Both the position numbers and the translations under genes were made by a program. Below are positions 13,033-26,910 of a stretch of DNA of 64,000 bases, one piece after another (the stretch's first letter is position 1; each line of letters opens with the position of its first letter). Origin of the DNA: Variovorax boronicumulans NBRC 103145 (GTDB lineage Bacteria; Pseudomonadota; Gammaproteobacteria; Burkholderiales; Burkholderiaceae_C); contig NZ_BCUS01000013.1 in NCBI RefSeq assembly GCF_001591345.1, positions 1 to 64,000 on the forward strand, written 5' to 3'. Below the pieces are notes generated by a model. It was not told the origin of the DNA, did not search any database, and worked only from the letters and a program-made list of their open reading frames with translations.

Positions 13033-16000
13033 TCATGCCTCGAGCACCACGTCTTCGAGCGGGATGGCCTGGCAGGCAAGGCACACGGCCGGGTCTTCCG
13101 GTTCGCTGCCGTGCAGATGGCGCACCTTGCCGCTCAGCACGCGCACCGCACAGCTCTCGCACTGGCCCACACGGCAGCCGCTGGCCATCTGCACGCCGAG
13201 CGATTCGCCAAAGGTCAGTAACGTGCCCTGCCGGGGCGTCCACGTTGCGGGGGCGCGGGCCGAGCGCGCGAAGCTGACGGTGAAGCGCTGGGCGCCGTCG
13301 GTGGGCGGCGTGGTGGGCGAACGGAAGACCTCGCTGAAGATGTCGAAGCGCGGAACGCCCCGCGCCACGAGGCCGGAGGTCACCGCGTCCATCATGGCCG
13401 GCGGTCCGCACAGGTAGAAGCGGGCGCGCTGCGCGATCAACGCGTCGTCCACCACGCTCGCGTCAATGAAACGGTCCGACTGGTAGTCGATGCCCTGACG
13501 CTCCTGCGGCTGTGGTGCGTTGTAGTGGTCGACAACCTGCAACTGCGGCAGCCGCGCGCGGTGCTGTGCAATGCGCTCGCGAAACGCGTGGGTCGTGCCG
13601 TTCTGGTTGGCGTAGTAGAGCCAGATGGCCGGACCCTGCGCGCCGTCGGGCAGCGATTCGAGCAAGCTGATGAAGGGCGTGATGCCGATGCCGCCCGCGA
13701 AAAAGACCAGCGGCTGCGGCGAGTGGCGCGGCAGCACGAAGCCGCCGGACGGCGCCCGCAGCGCGAGGGTGTCACCGACCTTCAACGCGCGGTGCAGATG
13801 GCTCGACACGCGCCCCTCGTGCGGCGTGCCGTCGGCCGAGCGGCCGCGCTGGTGGCGCACGGCCACGCTGTAACTGCGCCGGCCCGGCACCTCGGCCGCG
13901 CCCGTGAGCGAGTAGGCGCGCGTGACCTGCGTGCCATCGTCCAGATGCAATTGCATCTCGATGTGCTGACCGGGTCGGTAGTCGGGCAGTTCGCCGCCGT
14001 CGACCGGCTCGAAGTGGATGCCCAGCACGCCGTCGGCCTCGGGCCGCAGCGCGCTGATGCGGAAGGGGCGGTAGCCGGACCACTTGCGCTGCCGCATCTC
14101 TGTGGCCGGGTCGCGTTCGATGTCGCAGAGAAACGAGCGATGCGGCACCGAACCGCTCACCGGGTCGCAACTGTCGGCGGATATCAGCGCGTTGAAGTTG
14201 CTGCCCAACGCGCCTTCAATCAGCAGGCCGTCGCGATCGAGCTCGGGGCAGCTCTGCCACCAGCCGAACTCGGCCACGATGACGTCGTCCGCCAGTTGGG
14301 GCGTGACGCGGGCGACGAAGCGGGCCTCGCCCACGCGCGTGCGGATGCGCATCCAGTCGCCGTCGACGATGCCCTTGGCGGCCGCGAGCGCGGGGCTCAA
14401 TTCGGCCACCGGATCGGGCGCGCGCTTGCGCAGCGAGGCCAGACTGCGGTGCTGGCTGTGGCAATAGAAGCCGTTCTTGGCCGAACTCAGCACATAGGGA
14501 AAGCGGCCCTGGCGCGTGGCCTTCGCATCGCGCGGCGTGTCTGCCGGTTCGACGAAGGTGGCGACCGGCGGCTGGCCGTGGCGCAGCAGGGTTTCCGAAT
14601 AGAGCTCGACGCGTCGCGTCGGGGTGTCGAAGCCGCGCACGCCGGTGGGCGTGGCGCGGGCGTACTTCTGCTCGCTCGCGTCGATGGCGCAGACCATGCC
14701 TTCGGGCCGGGCACGCAACTGGTCGACCGCGAGGCCGAGCGGCTCGAGCATGTGGTTCCAGCCCGCGTCGAGACTGCCGCCGAAGAAGTCGTCGCCCATG
14801 CCCAGGCGAACGGCCAGATCGAACAGCACGTCGTTGTCGGCGCGCGATTCACCGCGCGGCGTGACCATGCGCTGGCGCAACTGCACCCAGCCGGCCGCAC
14901 GGTCGTCGATCTCGAAGCCGATGCGCAGGCCCTCGCGTTCCCAGGGTGTATTGACCGGCAGCAGGATGTCGGCGTACCGGGCGGCGGGTGTTTCGAACAA
15001 GTCGCAGTGCACGTGGAATTCGAGCTGCGACAGCGCCTGGTGCGCGAGCGCGCTGTCGGCCTGCGACACGGGCAGGTTGGTGCCGAAGGCCATCATCGCG
15101 CGCACCCTGTAAGGCTCGCCTTCGAGAATCGCGCGGTAGGTGTCGCGCGCCGTCACCCAGCCGTGCGCGGGAGGGCCGATCGGGCGCTGCGCCAGACCGA
15201 GGGCCTTGGCGCGCTGCGCGTCGGGCAGCAGTGAGAGCGAGTTGACGGCGTTGACGCGCGGACCGACGCGAACGCGGTTCGCACCGATGCGGTCGAAGCT
15301 GCCGCACAGCGCATACAGCGTGGCGACTGCGCGCTCGGCTTGCGTCGCGTTGGTGTGCTGGCCGATGCCGGTCCAGGCGTGATAGGCCACGCGGCGGCAC
15401 GTGCCGAAAAGATCAGCGACCGCGCGCAACGAAGCCTCGGCAACGCCGGTGATGCGTTCGACATTCGACGGCGGGTAGGCGGCACAGCCCTGGGCCAGCA
15501 GTTCGAAGGCTGGCGCACACGACAGGCGATGTGCGCCCACGTCGATCTCGACCGCGCCGCGCAGGCGGAAGTGGGCGGCGTCTTGGGTTTGCGCCGCCTG
15601 CTCGGTGTCATAAGGCACCGCGCGGTCCAGTGCGTCGTTCCACGCCATGAAGCGGTTGCCCTGGGCATCGGGCCACAGGTCCTGCTCGCGCAGGAAGTGC
15701 CCGTTGTCGCCGCGCACCAGCAACGGGGCATTGGTCCACGCGCGCACGAAACCTTCGTCGAAGCGCGCATCCGCGATCAGCAGGTGGATCAGCCCCAGCG
15801 CCAGTGCCGCATCGGTGCCGGGCCGCACGGGCAGCCAGGTGTCAGCCTGCCGCGAGAGCGCCGTGGGGCGCGGATCGATCACCACCATCTTCGCCCCGTT
15901 CGCGCGGCCTCGGCCGATCGCGTTGGCCTGTGCCAGCCAGGTGTTCGCGGGGTTGTGACCCCACAGCACGATCAGGTCGGCCTGCGCGTAGTCGGCCGCG

Positions 16001-16500
16001 GGCATGCCGCAGCCGAAGGTGAAGGCGTGCGCGAAGTCCTTGTGCCAGTTGCAGACCTCGGTCGCGTAGCAGATGTTGGGACTGCCAAAGAGGCGCACGA
16101 AGCGCTCGATCCAATCGATGCTGTCCGTCAATGGCGTGCCGCTGGGCGTGGTCACAGCGAACACCACCGACTCGGCACCGCTCTCGGCCTTGATGGCACT
16201 CAGGCGCTTGGCGGTCTCGGCCAGTGCCTCGTCCCAGCCGATGCGCACCCAGCCCGGATCCGCTTCGGTCTTGGGCCTCGTGCGACGCATCGGGTAGCGC
16301 AGCCGGTGCGGACTGTGCACCAGTTCGGGCGCGGCCTTGCCCTTCATGCACATCGCCTGGCCGGTGGGGTGCGAAGCGTCGGGCCGTACCGACACCAGCA
16401 TGTCGTCACGCACCTCGTTGAGCGTGCCGCAGCGCGAACGGCAGAGCGTGCAGTAGCCCTGCTTGGTTTGCGTGGGCGCCGTCGTCGTCATCACTTGCAT
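13033..16500 (-). CDS. Molybdopterin oxidoreductase fused to ferredoxin reductase and 2Fe-2S ferredoxin
   Basis: A single 1155-aa polypeptide with three modules. Residues 1-~800 are a DMSO-reductase-superfamily molybdenum subunit. Cys17, Cys20, Cys24 and Cys51 form a 4Fe-4S motif, Cys150 in ATEVCNWHKD is the probable Mo ligand, and a molydopterin-dinucleotide-binding domain sits at about 665-790. Residues ~805-1060 are a flavin reductase module with RAYSLTG (FAD) near 861 and GGIGITP (NAD(P)H) near 936. Residues ~1068-1155 are a plant-type 2Fe-2S domain with Cys1109, Cys1114, Cys1117 and Cys1143. The chain could therefore move electrons between NAD(P)H and the Mo centre without partners. No Tat or Sec signal is seen, so it is cytoplasmic. 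Nitrate-reductase-like roles are possible, but the neighbours (fatty-acid transporter, cyclodeaminase-like) suggest an organic substrate. An alternative start is at 16491. Confidence 0.9.
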   Translation of the reverse strand: MQVMTTTAPTQTKQGYCTLCRSRCGTLNEVRDDMLVSVRPDASHPTGQAMCMKGKAAPELVHSPHRLRYPMRRTRPKTEADPGWVRIGWDEALAETAKRLSAIKAESGAESVVFAVTTPSGTPLTDSIDWIERFVRLFGSPNICYATEVCNWHKDFAHAFTFGCGMPAADYAQADLIVLWGHNPANTWLAQANAIGRGRANGAKMVVIDPRPTALSRQADTWLPVRPGTDAALALGLIHLLIADARFDEGFVRAWTNAPLLVRGDNGHFLREQDLWPDAQGNRFMAWNDALDRAVPYDTEQAAQTQDAAHFRLRGAVEIDVGAHRLSCAPAFELLAQGCAAYPPSNVERITGVAEASLRAVADLFGTCRRVAYHAWTGIGQHTNATQAERAVATLYALCGSFDRIGANRVRVGPRVNAVNSLSLLPDAQRAKALGLAQRPIGPPAHGWVTARDTYRAILEGEPYRVRAMMAFGTNLPVSQADSALAHQALSQLEFHVHCDLFETPAARYADILLPVNTPWEREGLRIGFEIDDRAAGWVQLRQRMVTPRGESRADNDVLFDLAVRLGMGDDFFGGSLDAGWNHMLEPLGLAVDQLRARPEGMVCAIDASEQKYARATPTGVRGFDTPTRRVELYSETLLRHGQPPVATFVEPADTPRDAKATRQGRFPYVLSSAKNGFYCHSQHRSLASLRKRAPDPVAELSPALAAAKGIVDGDWMRIRTRVGEARFVARVTPQLADDVIVAEFGWWQSCPELDRDGLLIEGALGSNFNALISADSCDPVSGSVPHRSFLCDIERDPATEMRQRKWSGYRPFRISALRPEADGVLGIHFEPVDGGELPDYRPGQHIEMQLHLDDGTQVTRAYSLTGAAEVPGRRSYSVAVRHQRGRSADGTPHEGRVSSHLHRALKVGDTLALRAPSGGFVLPRHSPQPLVFFAGGIGITPFISLLESLPDGAQGPAIWLYYANQNGTTHAFRERIAQHRARLPQLQVVDHYNAPQPQERQGIDYQSDRFIDASVVDDALIAQRARFYLCGPPAMMDAVTSGLVARGVPRFDIFSEVFRSPTTPPTDGAQRFTVSFARSARAPATWTPRQGTLLTFGESLGVQMASGCRVGQCESCAVRVLSGKVRHLHGSEPEDPAVCLACQAIPLEDVVLEA

Positions 16501-19164: not shown

Positions 19165-20391
19165 TTATCGCAAGCCAGATTCAGCCACGCGCAACCGGTA
19201 GAGGCCGACGTCGACGAGCCCCGCGTGGAAGCCGGCCTCGCAGTAGGAGAGGTAGTAGGTCCACAAGCGCTTGAACGCGGCATCGAAGCCGAGTGGCTCG
19301 ATCTGCGGCCAGGCGGCGAGGAACCGGCGACGCCACTCTGCCAGGGTTCGCGCGTAGTCCTTGCCGAAGCAGCGGGAAGCCTCGATCACCAACCCTGCGC
19401 GTTGCGCCTGTTCCCGCAGCACGCGCGGGCTGGGCAGCATGCCACCGGGAAAGATGCAGTGCTGGATGAAATCGGTCCCCTGGCGGTAGCTGTCGAACTG
19501 CACATCGGCGATCGTGATCGCCTGCAGCACCACGACGCCACCGGGCTTGAGGCGCTCGCGCAAGGTGGCGAAGTAGGTGGGCCAGTAGGCCTCGCCGACG
19601 GCTTCGATCATCTCGATGGACACGATGCGGTCGAACCGGCCCTGCACGTCGCGGTAGTCCTGCAGCCGCAGGTCGACCCGGTCGGCCACGCCCCAGTCCT
19701 GCGCGCGTTCGCGGGCGAAGGCCAGTTGCTCGCTCGACAGCGTGACGCCGGTGACGCGCGCTTCGTGCCGGCGGGCCAGGCTCGCGGCCAGCGTTCCCCA
19801 GCCGCAGCCGATCTCGAGCACGTCGCCCCCTTGCGGGGTGTCGAGCATCTCGGCGATGGCAGCGAGGCGGCGCGCCTGGGCGGCTTCCAGCGTGTCGTCG
19901 TCGGCATCGCTGAACATCGCGCTCGAATACAGCATGCTGTCGTCCAGCCAGTGCCGATAGAACGCGTTGCCCAGGTCGTAGTGGAACGCGATGTTGTGCC
20001 GGCTTCCGCGCCGGCTGTTGCTGCGGGTCAGGTGCCGCAGCCGCGCCGCCCAGCGCGCCAGCCCGCGCCCCTTGAGCAGCGATCCCCAGGCCGACTCGTT
20101 GGCCAGGCCGAATTCGAACAAGGCCAGCAGGTCCGGACTGTCCCACTCGCCGTCGCGAAATGACAGGGCCAGGCCCAGATCGCCTTGCAGCGCCAGGCGC
20201 AGCAGCGGGCGCCAGCTCAGCAGGCGCAGGCTCGCGTGCGGCCCGGGTTCGCGGCCGGCCACCTCGATGCACCGGCCGCCCGGAAGGCTCAAGGACAGCC
20301 GGCCGAAACGCGTGCGGGCCAGCAGCCGGCGCAGCGGCGAGAAGACCGGTGCGGCATCGAGCGCGGGGGCGGAAGGTGTGGTCAGGCTCAT
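19165..20391 (-). CDS. Cyclopropane-fatty-acyl-phospholipid synthase family methyltransferase
   Basis: SAM-dependent lipid methyltransferase of 408 aa. The N-terminal ~130 residues resemble the lipid-binding half of CFA synthases. Then comes the diagnostic HYDLGNAFYRHWLD...YSSAMF (about 137-160), and SAM motif I is VLEIGCGWG (191-199). These enzymes add a methyl group across double bonds of membrane phospholipid acyl chains. The ATG at 20391 overlaps the stop of the DUF1365 gene (ATGA), so the two are coupled. It is the last gene of the FAD protein, DUF1365, methyltransferase operon next to the ECF sigma gene. It may make methylated or furan-type acyl chains instead of plain cyclopropane rings. 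Confidence 0.9.
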   Translation of the reverse strand: MSLTTPSAPALDAAPVFSPLRRLLARTRFGRLSLSLPGGRCIEVAGREPGPHASLRLLSWRPLLRLALQGDLGLALSFRDGEWDSPDLLALFEFGLANESAWGSLLKGRGLARWAARLRHLTRSNSRRGSRHNIAFHYDLGNAFYRHWLDDSMLYSSAMFSDADDDTLEAAQARRLAAIAEMLDTPQGGDVLEIGCGWGTLAASLARRHEARVTGVTLSSEQLAFARERAQDWGVADRVDLRLQDYRDVQGRFDRIVSIEMIEAVGEAYWPTYFATLRERLKPGGVVVLQAITIADVQFDSYRQGTDFIQHCIFPGGMLPSPRVLREQAQRAGLVIEASRCFGKDYARTLAEWRRRFLAAWPQIEPLGFDAAFKRLWTYYLSYCEAGFHAGLVDVGLYRLRVAESGLR

Positions 20392-21176
20392 TGGGTCTTG
20401 TTCGAAGGAACGATGGTGAGGTCGTGGTCGGGGGCAGCCGGTCGCGGATGCAGCGGCACGCGCTTGATCCACAGACGCAGGGCCTGCCAGTGGATGGCGG
20501 CCACCACCTTGAGGGTCAGCAACGGATGCGTGATGAACACGCGCAGCAGCGCCAGGTCGCTCAGGGGGGCGCGTTGGCCGTCGAGCCGCGCGTTGAGCAC
20601 GGCGCCGGCCGCGTCGTGCACGCTGATGCCGACCGAGACCGCCTCGCCCGGCGGTGCGACGCGGAACCGGTAGTGCAGGTCCATGCCGTTGAAGGGGGAG
20701 ACGTACATCTGCTTGTCGCAGTGCTGCTCGACGATGGGCGCGCCGTCATCAGCGACCGGGATCAGGTAGCTGTGCCGTTGCCCGAAGGTGTTGTTGACCT
20801 CGTACAGCAGCGCCTGCAGCGCGCCGCCGGGTGCATGGCAGAACCAGACGCTGAGCGGGTTGAACACATGGCCGAGCAGCCGCGGCATGGTCAGCAGCCG
20901 GATCGCGCCGCCGGTCGGAAGGCCGGCCTCGAGCAGCCGCGCCTCCACCTGGACCCGCAGGTCGCGGCCCGAGCCGTCGCCATGGTCGGCGGCATGAAAG
21001 CTGAACAGGTTGAACCGGTCCACCGAGAAGCAGCGCAACCGGGCGTGCAACTGCGGCAGTTCGTCGATGTCGATCAGCAGGTTGTAGACCCGGTAGCTCA
21101 GCCGATGCCGCTTCGGCCGCAGCCGCTGGTGCATGACGCGTCCGATGTAGAGCGCCGAGCCTTCGTGCGCGTTCAT
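20388..21176 (-). CDS. DUF1365 family protein
   Basis: Protein of 262 aa matching DUF1365 by the entry LYIGRVMHQRLRPKRHRLSYRVYNLLIDIDEL, the internal VFNPLSVWFC and the C-terminal LLTLKVVAAIHWQALRLWIKRVP. Biochemical function is not established to my knowledge. The family travels almost always with an amine-oxidase-like FAD protein and a CFA-synthase-like methyltransferase, exactly as here. The start at 21176 overlaps the stop of the FAD protein gene (ATGA); the longer upstream reading is within that gene. Confidence 0.88.
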   Translation of the reverse strand: MNAHEGSALYIGRVMHQRLRPKRHRLSYRVYNLLIDIDELPQLHARLRCFSVDRFNLFSFHAADHGDGSGRDLRVQVEARLLEAGLPTGGAIRLLTMPRLLGHVFNPLSVWFCHAPGGALQALLYEVNNTFGQRHSYLIPVADDGAPIVEQHCDKQMYVSPFNGMDLHYRFRVAPPGEAVSVGISVHDAAGAVLNARLDGQRAPLSDLALLRVFITHPLLTLKVVAAIHWQALRLWIKRVPLHPRPAAPDHDLTIVPSNKTQ

Positions 21177-22558
21177 GAGGCGACGGTCTGCGCGAGGTGC
21201 GGCAGGTGGATGCGTCCGGACTCCTGCGCCACGCACCAGGGCCGGCGCACGCCGCCGAGCGCTTCGGCGACGGCCAGGCCGGCCTGCAATCCGTCCTCAT
21301 GGAAGCCGGCGCCGAAGTAGGCGCCGCAGAACCAGGTGCGGCGCTGGCCCTGCAGCTGCCACAGCTGGCGCTGCGCGGCCATGGCCGCGGCATCGAACAG
21401 CGGGTGGTCGTAGACCTCGGTGCGGATCAGGTGCTCGGGCCGCGGGTCGATCGCCGGGTTCAGAGTCAGGAACAGCGGCTCGGCCGCCGCGCCCTGCGGC
21501 AGGTGGGGCTGCAGCCGGTTCATCCAGTAGGTCACCGTTGGAGCCGCGCCGCTGCCGCGCGTGCCGAGGTAGTTCCAGCTCGACCACACGGCGCGCCGCG
21601 CCGGCATCAGGGCAGGGTCGCGGTGCAGCACGGCCAGGTTGCGGCTGTAGGGAAGGGCACCGAGCAGGGCCCGCTCGGCACCGGTGGGCGCGTCGAGCAG
21701 CGCCAGCGAGCGGTCCGCATGGGTGGCCAGGACCACCTGGTCGAAGCGTTCGGGCCACCAGCCGGCGCTGGTGCGAAGCCGCACACCCGCCGGCTCGCGA
21801 TGCAGTTCGAGCACGGCCCGGTCCAGCTGGATGCGGTCGGCGAAAGGCTGGCTGAGGCGCCGCACGTATTCGCGGCTGCCGCCCACCACCGTGCGCCAGA
21901 CGGGGCGGCCGCTGATCTGCAGAAGCCCATGGTTCTCGCAGAACCGCACAAAGGCTGCCACCGGATGGCGACCGACCTGCGCCGCCGGCGTGGACCAGAT
22001 GGCCGCAGCCATGGGGTAGAGGTGGTCGTCGCGAAACGCGCGGCCATAGCCGTGGGCATCCAGGTAGTCGTCGAGCGCCTGGTCGCCTGCGACCTGCGCA
22101 TCGCGCGGAGCCTCGCGGTAGAACCGCAGCAGGTCGCGCAGCATGGCCCAGAAGCGGGGGCGCGCCAGGTTGCGCTTTTGCGCGAACAAGCCGCGCAGGT
22201 CGGTGCCGGCGTATTCGAGCCCGCCGGCGTCCAGGCTCACTGCGAACGACATGTCCGAGGCCGCGGTCGGCACGGCCAGGTGCTGGAACAACGCGGTGAG
22301 GTTCGGGTACGCGGGCTCGTTGTAGACGATGAAGCCGGTGTCCACCGGCACCGGGCCTTCCCGGCCTGGCGCGTCCACGGTATGGCTGTGGCCGCCCAGC
22401 CGGGGCTCGCTCTCGAACACCGTGACCTCGTGGCGCTGGGACAGCAGCCAGGCACAGGACAGGCCCGAGATGCCGGTGCCGACGACGGCGATGCGCTGGC
22501 CGGAGGGCACCGAGGCAGGCATCGGCACGGCGGCAGGCGGGGCGAGAAGAGGCAGCAT
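21173..22558 (-). CDS. FAD/NAD(P)-binding amine oxidase-like protein
   Basis: Flavoprotein of 461 aa. The dinucleotide site is RIAVVGTGISGLSCAWLL near residue 22, followed by VTVFESEPRLGGHSHT, and the C-terminal WFCGAYFGAGFHEDGLQAGLAVAEALGG closes the FAD fold. The family (DUF1365/CFA-linked 'amine oxidases') is thought to act on fatty acyl chains rather than amines, for example as a desaturase. The ATG at 22558 has AAGG upstream; another in-frame ATG lies at 22606. It heads the minus operon and is divergent from the ECF sigma gene, with a 108-bp shared gap. Confidence 0.88.
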   Translation of the reverse strand: MLPLLAPPAAVPMPASVPSGQRIAVVGTGISGLSCAWLLSQRHEVTVFESEPRLGGHSHTVDAPGREGPVPVDTGFIVYNEPAYPNLTALFQHLAVPTAASDMSFAVSLDAGGLEYAGTDLRGLFAQKRNLARPRFWAMLRDLLRFYREAPRDAQVAGDQALDDYLDAHGYGRAFRDDHLYPMAAAIWSTPAAQVGRHPVAAFVRFCENHGLLQISGRPVWRTVVGGSREYVRRLSQPFADRIQLDRAVLELHREPAGVRLRTSAGWWPERFDQVVLATHADRSLALLDAPTGAERALLGALPYSRNLAVLHRDPALMPARRAVWSSWNYLGTRGSGAAPTVTYWMNRLQPHLPQGAAAEPLFLTLNPAIDPRPEHLIRTEVYDHPLFDAAAMAAQRQLWQLQGQRRTWFCGAYFGAGFHEDGLQAGLAVAEALGGVRRPWCVAQESGRIHLPHLAQTVAS

Positions 22559-22584
22559 GGGGAGCCTTTGGCGAGTCTTGCTGC

Positions 22585-22614
22585 CCTGTACGCAGAAAAC
22601 GGTCATTTGGATTG
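22585..22614 (-). promoter_or_regulatory. Possible ECF-type promoter of the FAD/DUF1365/CFA operon
   Basis: On the minus strand CAATCC (22614-22609), an 18-nt spacer and TACAGG (22590-22585) precede the FAD-protein gene. The spacing equals that of the two better ECF-like sites in this locus, but the -35 matches TGATCC at only four of six positions. It is offered as a weak candidate. Confidence 0.3.
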
Positions 22615-22631
22615 CCCGCGTGTCGCTGCGA

Positions 22632-22661
22632 TGATCCGAATGCCGCTCCCTTGCGTATGAC
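22632..22661 (+). promoter_or_regulatory. ECF (RpoE/ECF11-like) autoregulatory promoter
   Basis: TGATCC (22632-22637), an 18-nt spacer and TATGAC (22656-22661) lie directly before the sigma gene. The TGATCC -35 element is the one described for Rhodobacter RpoE promoters; the match is from memory. Transcription would start around 22667-22669, which places the start at or after the first ATG of the sigma gene. Confidence 0.6.
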
Positions 22662-22666
22662 AGGAC

Positions 22667-23323
22667 ATGGCCGTTGCTCCCGATCCGTCCAACCCCAGTG
22701 CGGGCACTCCGGTGCCCCGCAGTCGCCGAGCGTCCATCTTGACCGTGGTCTCCCCCGATTCCCAGCCATCTCCTCGCGCCGACGATCTCTGGGCCCAGGC
22801 GATGGTGGCCGTGGCGCAGCGACAGGACCGGGACGCGTTCGCGCAGCTGTTCTCGCATTTCGCGCCGCGCATCAAGCACTACCTGATGCACAGTGGCAGC
22901 CCGGCCATCCAGGCCGAAGAACTGGCCCAGGAAGCCCTGGTCACCGTCTGGCGCAAGGCCGCGCTGTTCGATCCGGCCCGGGCGGCTGCCACGACCTGGA
23001 TCTTCGCCATCGCGCGGAACCTGCGTGTGGACGCGCTGCGGCGGCGCCAGGGTGTGCAGTCGTCTGAAGACGTGTTCGACTTCGACCTGCTCCAGTCGGA
23101 TGACCCGACCGTCGAAGACCAGCTGCACGACGCGCGCCTGAACGAACGGCTGCGCGGCGCGCTGCGCCAGCTTCCGCCCGAGCAGCAGCAGGTGCTGCAC
23201 CTTTCCTATTTTGAAGACGCGCCGCATGCCCGCATCGCGGCCCAGCTGTGCATTCCGTTGGGCACGGTGAAGTCGCGCGTGCGCCTGGCGGTCGCCCAAC
23301 TGCGCCGCCTGCTGGAACATTGA
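22667..23323 (+). CDS. rpoE: ECF-family RNA polymerase sigma factor (RpoE/ECF11-like)
   Basis: Sigma-70 family factor of 218 aa as drawn. Region 2 spans about residues 60-130 (EELAQEALVTVWRKAALFDP, TTWIFAIARNLRVDALRR). Region 4 spans about 160-215 (LPPEQQQVLHLSYFEDAPHARIAAQL...GTVKSRVRLAVAQLRRLL). The ChrR-type anti-sigma gene starts two bases after its stop. The first ~35 residues are poorly structured and the predicted transcript start coincides with the ATG, so the true start may be the GTG at 22745 (192 aa, nearer the family norm). By homology it should respond to singlet oxygen or organic peroxide and drive the flanking lipid-modification operons. Confidence 0.9.
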   Translation: MAVAPDPSNPSAGTPVPRSRRASILTVVSPDSQPSPRADDLWAQAMVAVAQRQDRDAFAQLFSHFAPRIKHYLMHSGSPAIQAEELAQEALVTVWRKAALFDPARAAATTWIFAIARNLRVDALRRRQGVQSSEDVFDFDLLQSDDPTVEDQLHDARLNERLRGALRQLPPEQQQVLHLSYFEDAPHARIAAQLCIPLGTVKSRVRLAVAQLRRLLEH

Positions 23324-23325
23324 CG

Positions 23326-23991
23326 ATGGACATCCGACACCACCCCGACGACGACCTGCTGCTGGCCGGGTCCTCCGGCCACTTGCCGGCTGGCATGCGA
23401 CTGGTCCTGGCCAGCCACCTGGAACTGTGCCCGCTGTGCCGCGAGCGGGCGCGCGCACTCGATGCCGTGGGCGGCATCCTGCTCGACGGCCTGGAAGCGG
23501 TCCCGCTTGCCGATGACGCGCTGTCGCGCACCTGGGCCCGGATCGATGCGCACGAAGGCGCTGAACCCGCTGAACCCGCTCGCGTGCGGGTCAGCGCGCC
23601 CCCACCGCTGCCGCCCGGCGCGCGCTGGCCGCGTGCGCTCGCTCACTGCAGTGCCACGCCCTGGCGCTGGATCGGTCCCGGCATGCGCTGGAGCCGTGTG
23701 ACCGTGCCCGAGGCCCCGGAGGCCAACGTCTTTCTTCTGCGCATCGCGGCTGGCAAGTACCTGCCGCAGCACACGCACCAGGGGCAGGAGTTCACCCAGG
23801 TGCTGCACGGCCGCTTCCACGATGGCCGGGCCTTGTTCGGCCCCGGCGATTTCGATGCGGCCGATGCCGAGATCAACCACCAGCCGGTGGTCCAGGACGG
23901 CAGCGAGTGCATCTGCCTGGCCTCGCTGGACGGCCGGCTGCACTTCGACGGGGCTATTGCGCGTTTCTTCGGCGCGCTGGTCGGGATGTGA
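23326..23991 (+). CDS. chrR: ChrR-family zinc anti-sigma factor with cupin domain
   Basis: Cytoplasmic anti-sigma factor of 221 aa. The N-terminal zinc anti-sigma fold has His6 and the H31-x3-C35-x2-C38 motif (HLELCPLC). The C-terminal cupin domain, about residues 110-215, carries the metal-ligand series in QHTHQGQEFTQVLHG and the later IN-H. In the Rhodobacter prototype the first domain holds the sigma factor silent and the second senses singlet oxygen. It begins two bases after the sigma stop and its end overlaps the DUF2177 gene on the other strand by 38 nt. Confidence 0.9.
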   Translation: MDIRHHPDDDLLLAGSSGHLPAGMRLVLASHLELCPLCRERARALDAVGGILLDGLEAVPLADDALSRTWARIDAHEGAEPAEPARVRVSAPPPLPPGARWPRALAHCSATPWRWIGPGMRWSRVTVPEAPEANVFLLRIAAGKYLPQHTHQGQEFTQVLHGRFHDGRALFGPGDFDAADAEINHQPVVQDGSECICLASLDGRLHFDGAIARFFGALVGM

Positions 23992-24385
23992 TGCGCGCCG
24001 CGACCCACGCCGACACGCCGCTCACGGCCGTGCCCCATGCCAGGTCGGCGGCCGTGACGGCCCAGGGCCAGTCGCGCAGCGTGGCTTGGTTCGTCAGGTC
24101 ATAGGTCGCGTAGGCCACGAGCCCGAGCAGCGCGCCGCGACACAACGCGACGGCGGGCTCGCCGGCCTCCAGTGCCGGCGCGATCGCCAAGACGACCAGG
24201 CCGACCAGGTAGAGCGCATAGAACAGCGCCGCCGCCGTCCAGTCGACCTGCGGCGCCATCAGCGGACCGAGCGCAGGCTGGTACAGGCGCGGCCCCATGA
24301 CCGACAGCCAGACGGCATCCAGCACAAGAAAACACACGAGCGCCCACAGGTAGGCAGCGAGCAAGGTACGCGGGGAGGGCTTCAT
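23954..24385 (-). CDS. DUF2177 family membrane protein
   Basis: Small inner-membrane protein of 143 aa with four hydrophobic segments, matching DUF2177 by LVLDAVWLSVMGPRLYQPALGPLM and ATYDLTNQATLRDWPWAVTAADLAWGT. No enzymatic role is established. It is the last gene of the second minus-strand lipid operon, and its start overlaps the stop of the DUF6134-like gene. Homologues often accompany CFA-synthase-like genes and ECF sigma factors. Confidence 0.85.
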   Translation of the reverse strand: MKPSPRTLLAAYLWALVCFLVLDAVWLSVMGPRLYQPALGPLMAPQVDWTAAALFYALYLVGLVVLAIAPALEAGEPAVALCRGALLGLVAYATYDLTNQATLRDWPWAVTAADLAWGTAVSGVSAWVAARITSRPARRRNAQ

Positions 24386-25014
24386 GGGGTGCTCCGTGCA
24401 GGAGAGGTCAGTCGGTAGCTCAGTTGGCGATCGCCCTTGGTGTCAGCGTCGAGCCCGATCCAGCGTCCGCTGTCGGCGGCATACCAGATGCGGATGCGCT
24501 GCTGCGCCGCCTGCAGTCGCCAGCCGCGCGCCCGCACGGGCTGACCGCGGACCTCGAGGGTCGCATCGGGCAGCGGCTCGAAGCGGACCGGCTCGACCTT
24601 GCCCGTCTGGGGGGCGATCAGGCGCTGTTGTTTCACCAGCCGGGGATTCCAGTAGGCAAAGCTCATCGGGCAGTCGCCGTCGAAGCGCTGCGCGATCTGC
24701 TGGCGGGTGCCGTCGTCGTCGGTCTCGGCGCGCAGCTCACGCAGGCAGTCGCCGGCCCAGCGCTCCTCGGCCTGGTGCCGGTAGCGGTACACAGGGATGC
24801 CGAGCACGCGCACGGTGAACAGGGCACGACTGTCGACGCTGCGCGTCGCCGCCGTGCCGCCGACGACAAAGCGATGGGTCCCGATCGGCTTGCCATCGAG
24901 CATGGCGGTGAAGTGCCATTCGCCCGCTTCCTCGTCAGCTTCCTGTGCCACGGCCAGGCAGGTCGCCTGCGCCAGCATCAGCCCCAGCATCAGCCCCAGG
25001 GCGCTGTGCTTCAT
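24382..25014 (-). CDS. Exported DUF6134/DUF3108-like protein
   Basis: Predicted periplasmic protein of 210 aa. A signal peptide runs to about residue 24 (MKHSALGLMLGLMLAQATCLAVAQ), and a beta-rich domain contains FTAMLDGKPIGTHRF, VYRYRHQAEERWAGDCL and the end LDADTKGDRQLSYRL. The pattern resembles DUF6134; the catalytic role is unknown. The start at 25014 overlaps the end of the DUF1295 gene by four bases. Its place between a lipid reductase-like membrane protein and DUF2177 suggests lipid handling at the outer face of the inner membrane. Confidence 0.75.
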   Translation of the reverse strand: MKHSALGLMLGLMLAQATCLAVAQEADEEAGEWHFTAMLDGKPIGTHRFVVGGTAATRSVDSRALFTVRVLGIPVYRYRHQAEERWAGDCLRELRAETDDDGTRQQIAQRFDGDCPMSFAYWNPRLVKQQRLIAPQTGKVEPVRFEPLPDATLEVRGQPVRARGWRLQAAQQRIRIWYAADSGRWIGLDADTKGDRQLSYRLTSPARSTP

Positions 25015-25802
25015 GGCCGGGCGCCGCGCCGCGGCGGCCAGGGAATGAAGGTGCTGGTGCGTGCCGCGTAGCTGCGGTAGGCGGGCCGGCGCTCGGCAAT
25101 GTCGTGCTCCAGCAGCGCCACGCCCGACACCTTGAGCAGCAGGACGGTCATCAGCAGCGGAGACACAAGGCTCCACGCCACCGCCCATCCGCCCGCCGAC
25201 AGCGCTGCCAACCCGAGGCCCCACCAGACGCAGGCCTCGCCGAAGTAGTTGGGGTGGCGCGACCAGGCCCAGAGGCCGCGGTCCATCACCGCATCCTCGC
25301 GGCGCGGGTTGCGCAGGAAGCGGGCGAGCTGGGCGTCGGCCACGGCCTCGAAGACCATACCGCCGCCGGCCAGCAGCAGGGCCAGCACGTCCAGCCAGGA
25401 CAGGGGCGACGGGTGCGCGAACGCGGCCAGCAGCGGCCAACCGACGATCCATGCCAACACCGCCTGGAGCCCGAACACGAGGTAAAGGCTTTTCAGTCCG
25501 AAGTGTGGTTCGTTGCGCGCACGCATGGCCTGGTAGCGGCGGTCTTCGCCGTGGCCCCAGTTGCGACGCCCGATGTGCAGCGCCAGCCGGCAAGCCCATA
25601 TCAGCAGCAGCCCGAGCATCCAGATGCTGCGGGCGTCGAGCGCGCGGGCATGGGCGCCGGCGTAGGCCAGGGCCGGCGCCGCGATCATCAGGGGCCAGAT
25701 CCGGTCCGCCAAGCTGGCGTCGCGCACCACGACGCTGAACACCCAGACCGGCAACGCCAGGCCGAGCGTGATCGCCAGACCCAGGCAGGCGAGCGACAGC
25801 AT
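25011..25802 (-). CDS. DUF1295 / steroid 5-alpha-reductase-like membrane protein
   Basis: Integral membrane protein of 263 aa with about six to seven hydrophobic helices. The family hallmark is the C-terminal DRGLWAWSRHPNYFGEACVWWGL, shared by DUF1295 proteins, 3-oxo-5-alpha-steroid reductases and isoprenylcysteine methyltransferases, where it binds a nucleotide cofactor. An acyl-chain reductase role beside a CFA-type methyltransferase is plausible (as in 10-methyl fatty acid formation in actinobacteria, where a different reductase is used) but unproven. Its ATG shares one base with the stop of the upstream methyltransferase (TGATG). Confidence 0.85.
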   Translation of the reverse strand: MLSLACLGLAITLGLALPVWVFSVVVRDASLADRIWPLMIAAPALAYAGAHARALDARSIWMLGLLLIWACRLALHIGRRNWGHGEDRRYQAMRARNEPHFGLKSLYLVFGLQAVLAWIVGWPLLAAFAHPSPLSWLDVLALLLAGGGMVFEAVADAQLARFLRNPRREDAVMDRGLWAWSRHPNYFGEACVWWGLGLAALSAGGWAVAWSLVSPLLMTVLLLKVSGVALLEHDIAERRPAYRSYAARTSTFIPWPPRRGARP

Positions 25803-26851
25803 CACCGTTTCTCGAACAGGTAGTGACCGACCCACCACTGGCCGCCCTCGGCGTAGCCGAACAGCTCTTCCACCGAAATGAAGAAGAGCCGCCAGCGGGT
25901 CCACCACACCGGCGCGTCGCGCTCTCCGTAGACGGCGGCCAGCAGGGGCATGAGGGTGACCCGCCGGGCGTCCATGCGCGCCAGCCAGGCGGCCGAGGTC
26001 CGCGCGTAGTGGCGGCCATCCCAGCGCCAGCGGTGCAGCAGGCGCAAGTCGTCCTGGCAGCGCAGGGCGAGATCGTCGCTCGGCATCATGCCGCCGGAGA
26101 AGAAGTGGCGGCTCATCCAGTCGCTGGCATCGCGCTCCTCGAACGGGTAGGGCGCTTCGCGGTGAACGAAGACGTGCATGAAGAACCGCCCCTGCGGTTT
26201 CAACCAGCGGGCCACGTGCGAAAAGGCGCGCGGCCAGTTGCGCAGGTGCTCGAACATCTCCACCGACACCACCCGATCGAAGCGATCGCCGGTCTCGAAA
26301 TCATTGAAGTCGCAGGTGATCACCTCGAGGTTGCCCAGGCCGCGTGCCGCGGCTTCGGCCGTGATGAACAGCCGCTGCGAGTGCGAATTGGAGACCGCCG
26401 TGATGCGGGCGCGCGGGAAGTGTTCGGCCATCCACAGGCTCAGCGAACCCCAACCGCAGCCCAGCTCCAGGATGCGCAGCCCATCCGCCAAGCCGGCACG
26501 TGCGCAGGTCTCGGCCAAGGCCGCCGCCTCGGCCTGCTCGAGCGTCTGCACTCCTTCAGGCCACCAGCAGCAGCTGTACTTCCGGTGGGGGCCCAGCACG
26601 CCTGTGAAGAACTCGGCGGGCAACTCGTAGTGCTGTTCGTTGGCTTTTTCGGGCAGCAGGGCCAACGGTGCCTCCTGCAGTCCGTCGAAAAATGCCTCCG
26701 AACGCAGGGCGACGGCTTCCGGGTCGCCGCTGTCCAGCTCGACCAGGCGCTGGCGCAGCAGCCGCCGCACCCCCACCCGAACGGCGCCGTCGGGCACCAG
26801 GCCTTGTTCAACCCAATGGATGGCAGTGGAGGTGCTCGAGGCTTGGGGCAT
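25802..26851 (-). CDS. Cyclopropane-fatty-acyl-phospholipid synthase-family methyltransferase (second copy)
   Basis: SAM-dependent methyltransferase of 349 aa. Motif I is ILELGCGWGSLSLWMAEHFP, then TAVSNSHSQRLFI, and VVSVEMFEHLRNWPRAF is the motif II region typical of CFA-related enzymes. It lacks the long N-terminal lipid domain and HYDLGN motif of the copy at 19165-20391, so the two are distant paralogues with probably different acceptors. ATG 26851 is used; a GTG at 26911 would add 20 residues but overlaps an ECF-like promoter. First gene of the second lipid operon. Confidence 0.88.
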   Translation of the reverse strand: MPQASSTSTAIHWVEQGLVPDGAVRVGVRRLLRQRLVELDSGDPEAVALRSEAFFDGLQEAPLALLPEKANEQHYELPAEFFTGVLGPHRKYSCCWWPEGVQTLEQAEAAALAETCARAGLADGLRILELGCGWGSLSLWMAEHFPRARITAVSNSHSQRLFITAEAAARGLGNLEVITCDFNDFETGDRFDRVVSVEMFEHLRNWPRAFSHVARWLKPQGRFFMHVFVHREAPYPFEERDASDWMSRHFFSGGMMPSDDLALRCQDDLRLLHRWRWDGRHYARTSAAWLARMDARRVTLMPLLAAVYGERDAPVWWTRWRLFFISVEELFGYAEGGQWWVGHYLFEKR

Positions 26852-26880
26852 GGCGGTGGGTGCAGGAGGAGAGTCTCTTC

Positions 26881-26910
26881 TTCCTACGCCAGGCCGGCCG
26901 CAATGGATCA
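26881..26910 (-). promoter_or_regulatory. ECF (RpoE-like) promoter of the second lipid operon
   Basis: On the minus strand TGATCC (26910-26905), an 18-nt spacer and TAGGAA (26886-26881) precede the methyltransferase gene by about 30 nt. Element and spacing match the site at 22632-22661 before the sigma gene, so this operon is probably under the same sigma factor. Confidence 0.6.

Follow-up and report, generated by a model that had tools for sequence, protein, structure and literature searches.

In the genome of Variovorax boronicumulans NBRC 103145, the first 64,000 nucleotides of contig NZ_BCUS01000013.1 (forward strand; hereafter the window) hold the genes of an extracytoplasmic function (ECF) sigma factor and a ChrR anti-sigma protein, flanked on both sides by operons that each contain a methylase gene. 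We are fairly confident that this locus is an autoregulated stress regulon of the ECF11 (RpoE-ChrR) type, and that its two local target operons together encode a furan fatty acid (FuFA) pathway. The sigma factor, ChrR and the Ufa parts are of known kinds; the ECF11-run FufM-DUF1295-DUF6134-DUF2177 operon is a new variation on them. The genes had been named in an earlier sequence-only reading, and six-frame reading and profile searches found each of them in its place and matching its named family. Minus strand 22558-19165 codes for a flavin adenine dinucleotide (FAD) protein of the amine-oxidase family, a DUF1365 protein and a methylase of the cyclopropane fatty acid synthase (CFA) type, plus strand 22667-23991 for sigma and ChrR, and minus strand 26851-23954 for a methylase, DUF1295, DUF6134 and DUF2177. 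The features, with S-adenosylmethionine abbreviated as SAM, are as follows.

22632..22661, plus strand: ECF11-type promoter of sigma-chrR (TGATCC 22632-22637, N16, CGTA 22654-22657)
22585..22614, minus strand: divergent ECF11-type promoter of the UfaD-UfaO-UfaM operon (CAATCC 22614-22609, N16, CGTACAGG)
26881..26910, minus strand: ECF11-type promoter of the FufM-like operon (TGATCC 26910-26905, N16, CGTA 26888-26885)
22667..23323, plus strand: ECF sigma factor, RpoE/ECF11-like (Pfam Sigma70_r2/r4; best PDB match R. sphaeroides RpoE)
23326..23991, plus strand: ChrR anti-sigma protein, zinc anti-sigma domain and zinc cupin (TIGR02451, ChrR Cupin_7)
21173..22558, minus strand: UfaD-like FAD desaturase, flavin amine-oxidase family (Pfam; UfaD role from PMC7380195)
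20388..21176, minus strand: UfaO-like DUF1365 protein, putative furan-forming oxygenase (PF07103, 282.9 bits)
19165..20391, minus strand: UfaM-like SAM methylase, CMAS/CFA family, 408 residues (PF02353, 275 bits)
25802..26851, minus strand: FufM-like SAM methylase, 349 residues, coclaurine-N-methyltransferase-like subfamily (PDB matches)
25011..25802, minus strand: DUF1295 membrane protein, steroid-5-alpha-reductase-like (PF06966, 219 bits)
24382..25014, minus strand: DUF6134 protein, signal peptide likely as judged by eye (PF19630, 130 bits)
23954..24385, minus strand: DUF2177 membrane protein (PF09945, 148 bits)

When compared with solved structures, the sigma factor matched RpoE of Rhodobacter sphaeroides best (4.8e-43, 150.6 bits), and the next match stood at 1.4e-18 and 70.8 bits. 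The anti-sigma protein scored 198.4 bits with TIGR02451 (cut-off 124.5) and aligned over its length to R. sphaeroides ChrR (2z2s/2q1z). All eight zinc ligands listed in a review (PMC6852236) are kept, namely H6, H31, C35 and C38 and the equivalents of H141, H143, E147 and H177; here and below, statements on published systems follow the accessible parts of the cited papers. Judged by this kinship, the pair is ECF11-like, as the sequence-only reading had held. The singlet-oxygen regulon of R. sphaeroides RpoE-ChrR likewise has UfaM, UfaD and UfaO among its core targets. The window differs in that ufaD-ufaO-ufaM form one operon divergent from the sigma gene, and in that a fufM-DUF1295-DUF6134-DUF2177 operon is added beside the sigma-chrR pair. 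The true start of the sigma gene may be GTG 22745: by visual inspection, ATG 22667 would leave the transcript almost without a leader.

The promoters link this pair to its neighbors. TGATCC motifs had been noted before the sigma gene and before the second operon, and both were found exact in the window. Of the motif form first given, the TGATCC part held, but the -10 element TAnGA at N18 did not; the informative element is CGTA at N16. The quoted motifs gave two matches in the window, compared with 0.02 expected from shuffles, and the strict form TGATCC-N16-CGTA occurred at three sites in the 6.72-Mb genome, two of them in the window, with none for the reversed control. Chance is therefore a poor explanation. 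A third copy, missing from the first reading, diverges from the sigma promoter; it occupies 22614-22585 of the minus strand and reads CAATCC-N16-CGTACAGG, with two mismatches. A relative of the same genus (L289) has TAATCC-N16-CGTACAGG at the equivalent position. In an alignment of five hand-picked regions, ATCCAAA and CGTA were invariant and most of the spacer was variable. Judged by their promoters, both flanking gene sets are very probably switched on by the sigma factor.

The form found in the window equals the consensus obtained by chromatin immunoprecipitation sequencing for the ECF11 sigma factor PSPTO_1043 of Pseudomonas syringae, TGATCC-N16-CGTA (PMC5507510). That regulon also has Ufa homologues downstream; it differs in that the sigma/ChrR and Ufa genes occupy separate loci, and the motif there stands before phrB. 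RpoE2 promoters of Shewanella resemble those of the window as well (PMC4336711), and the consensus printed for Vibrio cholerae, TGATC-N18-CGTAT, is one base longer in its spacing (PMC5241685).

A genome-wide motif search, proposed with the sequence-only reading, delimited no wider regulon in this genome: with one mismatch allowed, 218 matches against 76 in the reversed control were too noisy. ATCC-N16-CGTAnnA gave eight matches genome-wide versus none in the control, two of the eight in the window. Of the remaining six, four are not closely followed by any called gene, and one (L277) coincides in part with the start codon of such a gene. The sixth is the third strict TGATCC-N16-CGTA site (G000:C25:62045-62070; L276/L003), and a gene that encodes SIS and CBS domains begins about 10 bases after it.

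For comparison, FufM loci were gathered from an order sample of 200 genomes (17 with FufM at E < 1e-100, a threshold chosen after the list was inspected), a class sample of 274 genomes (34 with FufM, some of whose loci were fetched) and a phylum sample of 398 genomes (33 with FufM); further loci came from named contigs, the best 80 of 500 relatives, a list with no Rhodopseudomonas among its entries. The resulting set of about 140 loci is uneven; L267, L085, L086, L109 and L271 were removed as duplicates or fragments, at least one duplicate pair (L112/L257) is still included, and early contig ends are scored as absences. A ChrR gene was present in 22 of these loci, the gene of a MerR-B12 regulator in 25, and neither in 93.

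Conservation of the motif was scored within 220 bases upstream in the 32 fetched loci that matched ChrR, which include two loci each from G203, G209 and G335 and several near relatives; dinucleotide shuffles served as control. The sigma motif was perfect at N16 in 19 of the 32 (0.010 expected). Before FufM-headed operons it was perfect in 12 of 15 (0.000 expected), where the seven of the 22 ChrR loci with FufM that are not FufM-headed fall outside the count, and before UfaD-headed operons in 7 of 20 (0.000 expected); the window, L289 and L266 are missing from this last count, as in each of them a further gene of that strand ends no more than 1500 bp away. With up to two mismatches, ATCC-N16-CGTA was found in 24/32, 15/15 and 13/20, respectively. 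The FufM motif at MerR-B12 loci was perfect in 0 of 27 and present with one mismatch in 0, and ATCC-CGTA was seen in 1. The motif is thus enriched before the flanking operons of related genomes, contrary to what the sequence-only reading had named as its refutation. L095, L110 and L122 serve as an internal control: there, UfaD follows FufM on the same strand, and no separate motif precedes it. Where DUF6134-DUF2177 stand apart, they carry their own motif (L110 at N16, L095 at N15).

Several observations weigh against the regulon as we describe it. ChrR reaches 175 of the 300 bits required by NF051881, a narrower equivalog model of NCBI, and orthology to the characterized Ufa and FufM proteins rests on family, gene order and subfamily identity. 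The sigma motif with at most one mismatch is found in only 24 of the 32 ChrR loci; L248, L250 and L264 have none, L137 and L311-L313 have GCATCC instead, and L243 has an N17 spacing. Of the seven ChrR loci in which FufM does not head its operon, five (L137, L245 and L311-L313) carry no motif at their UfaD-headed cluster. Conversely, in 63 loci that lack both ChrR and MerR-B12, the FufM site was perfect in one and present with one mismatch in six; three of those FufM sites, the one-mismatch ECF11-like promoters of L087, L089 and L092, belong to Variovorax, and searches of these three genomes found no ChrR over the cut-off and no close ECF11-like sigma factor. As a side note, L264 is a second sigma-ChrR pair, with no upstream motif, in the Pseudorhodoferax genome of L090.

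These cases bear on the possibility that the flanking operons answer to another regulator, as in the MerR-B12 clusters, and that their motifs have decayed or are not used. Such a view draws on the lack of a nearby ChrR in most FufM loci and on the near-motif that the three Variovorax loci keep with no ChrR found. However, in L289 of the same genus, whose proteins are 87-95% identical, the motifs are kept and the spacers differ, and a search of the 64-kb window at 1e-3 found no match to MerR-B12, nor to photolyase, DUF2878 or lipocalin. We give this possibility very little weight and retain control by the local sigma factor.

Turning to the enzymes, the first operon holds UfaD (FAD), UfaO (DUF1365) and UfaM (CFA-type) together, in the order of RPA2571-2570-2569 of Rhodopseudomonas palustris. 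These three genes are reported to be necessary and sufficient for the monomethyl 9M5-FuFA, and UfaO carries DUF1365 (PMC7380195); the homologue of RSP_1091 is annotated as a flavin amine oxidase (PMC5507510). The UfaM-like protein scores 250 bits with the NCBIfam model of E. coli-type Cfa, below the cut-off of 400. By family and gene order, the first operon is thus predicted to be UfaD-UfaO-UfaM, a set of furan fatty acid genes. R. palustris, too, has a second SAM methylase that is distant from UfaM in sequence, FufM (RPA0924); its gene has a distant locus number, whereas the fufM of the window sits in the ECF11 cluster together with DUF1295. RPA0923 was deleted in the R. palustris work (PMC7380195).

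The second methylase is of another subfamily than UfaM. Its best PDB match was coclaurine N-methyltransferase (1.8e-64), and the best CFA synthase stood at 5.8e-32. A cyclopropane synthase was rejected for this protein: it scored 141 bits with the Cfa equivalog (cut-off 400), which the UfaM-like protein fails as well, and coclaurine N-methyltransferase is the far better match. It shares 31% identity over 235 residues with its UfaM neighbor. FufM-like proteins from the same phylum, outside the class of the window (seven of 18 such genomes), are 43-50% identical to the window protein and show 27-33% local identity to UfaM proteins; R. palustris FufM is reported to be 26% identical to R. sphaeroides UfaM (PMC7380195) and 38% identical to its plant homologue LIME1 (PMC10940516). 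By sequence comparison, the second methylase thus belongs to the coclaurine-N-methyltransferase-like subfamily, which appears to hold FufM.

As the best solved relatives are N-methyltransferases, and the plant relatives methylate alkaloid nitrogen, the enzyme could be an amino-lipid N-methyltransferase, in an operon that changes head groups and not acyl chains. However, FufM, the tested bacterial enzyme seemingly of the same type, methylates a furan fatty acid: it turns 9M5-FuFA into the dimethyl 9D5-FuFA in vivo and in vitro (PMC7380195). The genes also cluster with UfaD, UfaO and UfaM, and we regard head-group methylation as very improbable. The sequence-only reading had suggested that the second operon may make another modified acyl lipid. 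Such a product could be a 10-methyl or cyclopropane chain completed by DUF1295 as the reductase, with nothing but the regulator in common between the operons. The low identity between the two methylases, the reductase-like character of DUF1295 and the absence of any nearby Ufa gene from 15 of the 54 FufM loci that have long flanks all speak for it. Against it, the methylase is nearer to coclaurine N-methyltransferase than to the CFA side by far, and 80 of the 140 loci have UfaD, UfaO and UfaM all together with FufM in one stretch, even with early contig ends scored as absences. A separate lipid is therefore improbable, and this part of the earlier reading was not supported. Since the methylase is of the FufM/coclaurine-N-methyltransferase type and its genes cluster with UfaD, UfaO and UfaM in many genomes, a single FuFA pathway is the simplest reading, and the two operons probably form one furan fatty acid pathway, not two lipids.

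DUF1295 travels with FufM: in 111 of the about 140 loci the two genes share a strand and lie no more than 1.5 kb apart. In the phylum sample it adjoins FufM in 22 of 33 loci (15/15 in the class of the window, 7/18 outside it). In the order sample DUF1295 was present in 17 of 17 FufM genomes, three genomes had DUF1295 alone and 180 had neither (Fisher p 6e-22). Nine loci with flanks of at least 2 kb have no adjacent DUF1295; a search of their genomes gave a DUF1295 match of 1e-25 or better in each. Of 13 genomes tested for DUF1295 elsewhere, 12 have a match at 1e-10. The same arrangement of genes as in the window is found again in Roseateles aquatilis (L088), in a metagenome-assembled genome (L093) and in the same genus (L289); L097 adds DUF2878. 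A group apart is formed by L300-L305, from six large genomes that belong to a single genus in the same phylum, whose FufM-like genes have no DUF1295 or Ufa match in the fetched stretch, and in a seventh genome of that genus (L298) DUF1295 lies beside the FufM-like gene.

A profile of 67 DUF1295 sequences matched the steroid 5-alpha-reductases 7c83 (8.5e-06, positions 100-200 of 248) and 7bw1 (1.2e-04); isoprenylcysteine methyltransferase (ICMT) 4a2n scored about equally (1.4e-04), and delta-14 sterol reductases came next. The N-terminal part was unaligned in the match to solved reductases, and the single sequence gave no PDB match at 0.1. In Pfam, the protein stayed below the cut-off of Steroid_dh (20.9 of 22.6 bits) and reached that of ICMT (24.6, cut-off 24). 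The invariant residues of DUF1295 include RHPNYF. For DUF6134, a profile of 44 sequences gave no PDB match up to an E-value of 1. Singlet oxygen or radicals convert furan fatty acids into ene-diones, and steroid 5-alpha-reductases reduce a carbonyl-conjugated double bond with reduced nicotinamide adenine dinucleotide phosphate (NADPH). Based on these two reactions, we therefore propose that DUF1295 might reduce a FuFA-derived ene-dione. If so, the membrane antioxidant would be detoxified or recycled, not merely consumed. Two points count against a central place for this protein: FufM alone suffices for dimethylation (PMC7380195), and 11 of the 33 FufM loci in the phylum sample lack a same-strand DUF1295 gene at a distance of up to 1.5 kb. 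DUF1295 would therefore be accessory.

A parallel exists in Chlamydomonas, where 104 singlet-oxygen genes depend on SAK1 (PMC4067076, Table 5). CFA1, CFA2 and genes for DUF1365, DUF2177 and DUF1295 are all among them, with a log2 induction of 3.0 to 5.9, so that the algal list contains five genes of the families found in the window, two of them CFA-type; CFA2 is called coclaurine N-methyltransferase in Table 9 of that paper. The algal set differs in its eukaryotic regulator, and DUF6134 is not listed in the accessible part of the source. The algal CFA genes have already been linked to R. sphaeroides in print (PMC4067076, PMC8491031). In the open-licence literature we found no mention of the DUF1295/DUF2177 part of this link, at least two of DUF2177, DUF1295, DUF6134 and DUF2878 occurred together only in PMC4067076, and DUF1295 occurred with cyclopropane only there and in one plant paper; among the matches listed for sigma factor and ChrR, none named DUF1295. 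It is conceivable, if rather doubtful, that FufM, DUF1295 and DUF2177 make up an unrecognized second half of the FuFA response to singlet oxygen, common to bacteria and green algae, with DUF1295 as an NADPH-dependent ene reductase acting on the ene-dione of the furan chain that traps singlet oxygen.

The gene families, the promoters with their conservation and the gene clustering observed here fit a simple course of events, in which the inactivation of ChrR and the Ufa/FufM chemistry are carried over from published work on relatives; that the orthologues in the window act likewise, and every role of DUF1295, DUF6134 and DUF2177, we infer. ChrR would hold the sigma factor through its zinc anti-sigma domain until singlet oxygen or organic peroxide leads to the loss of ChrR. 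The freed sigma factor would then fire three TGATCC-like-N16-CGTA promoters, namely its own, that of the divergent ufaD-ufaO-ufaM and that of fufM-DUF1295-DUF6134-DUF2177. UfaM would methylate a cis-unsaturated phospholipid chain, UfaD would then desaturate it, and UfaO would insert oxygen to give the methylfuran, to which the FufM-like enzyme would add a second methyl group. DUF1295 would probably reduce an unsaturated FuFA-related lipid with NADPH. In published work, singlet oxygen destroys FuFA chains, and proteins that make FuFA are needed for ChrR turnover (PMC6852236). With sensor, synthesis, dimethylation and a co-travelling reductase-like protein in one compact locus, the fate of oxidized FuFA chains becomes testable in one organism.

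The same enzymes are found under different regulators. The sequence-only reading had raised the question whether DUF1295/methylase pairs always follow ECF11-type sigma genes. They do not, and we rejected them as strict ECF11 followers: ChrR over the cut-off was present in only 2 of 17 FufM genomes of the order sample and 3 of 34 of the class sample, and in the phylum sample ChrR lies in the stretch of 10 of 33 FufM loci and MerR-B12 in that of 1 of 33. Among 36 chosen genomes, ChrR was over the cut-off in 10 (seven adjacent, L137 in the stretch, L090 and L116 elsewhere), and in none of the 12 MerR-B12 genomes that this set includes. Seen from ChrR, each of the nine class-sample genomes with ChrR has UfaD and UfaO at least in the neighborhood of one ChrR gene, and three of the nine have FufM there too; one of these ChrR genomes has a second ChrR locus with no UfaD, UfaO or FufM.

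DUF2177 marks the ChrR type, with 13 of 22 ChrR-FufM loci versus 0 of 25 for MerR-B12 and 8 of 93 for the others, whereas DUF2878 is commoner in the MerR-B12 type (23/25 versus 9/22). Regulators of the LitR type have been described near ufaM clusters in Pseudomonas (PMC9758184). These light-induced clusters under class II LitR (MerR-B12) share with the window an FAD oxidoreductase, UfaM and uncharacterized genes near a light regulator; MerR-B12 clusters differ in having MerR-B12 instead of ECF11-ChrR, and DUF2878 and lipocalin genes are common in them. One such cluster has a fatty acid desaturase gene between its lipocalin and UfaD genes (L074:12863-13819). In Pandoraea (L165/L271) and another genome of the same order (L310), an ECF sigma gene followed by an anti-sigma gene stands beside DUF1295-FufM-UfaD-UfaO-UfaM. 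The anti-sigma protein is RskA_C by Pfam in L271 (8883-10342) and similar by eye in L310 (6941-8388), and GCATCC-N16-CGTA precedes DUF1295 and UfaD in these loci. ECF with an RskA-type anti-sigma protein is a third regulator type for the same FuFA gene set. One enzyme set under several regulators (ECF11-ChrR, MerR-B12 and the Pandoraea ECF/RskA type) offers a natural comparison of how light-stress signaling reaches the same lipid pathway, and the membrane-protein families of the second operon recur beside this pathway in many bacteria.

Two further features of the window were noted. The convergent genes chrR and DUF2177 share 38 bases at their 3' ends (23954-23991), and an overlap recurs in L088 and L289 according to tblastn coordinates. 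At 13033-16500, an open reading frame of 1155 residues reads by eye like a molybdopterin oxidoreductase fused to a ferredoxin-reductase-like tail.

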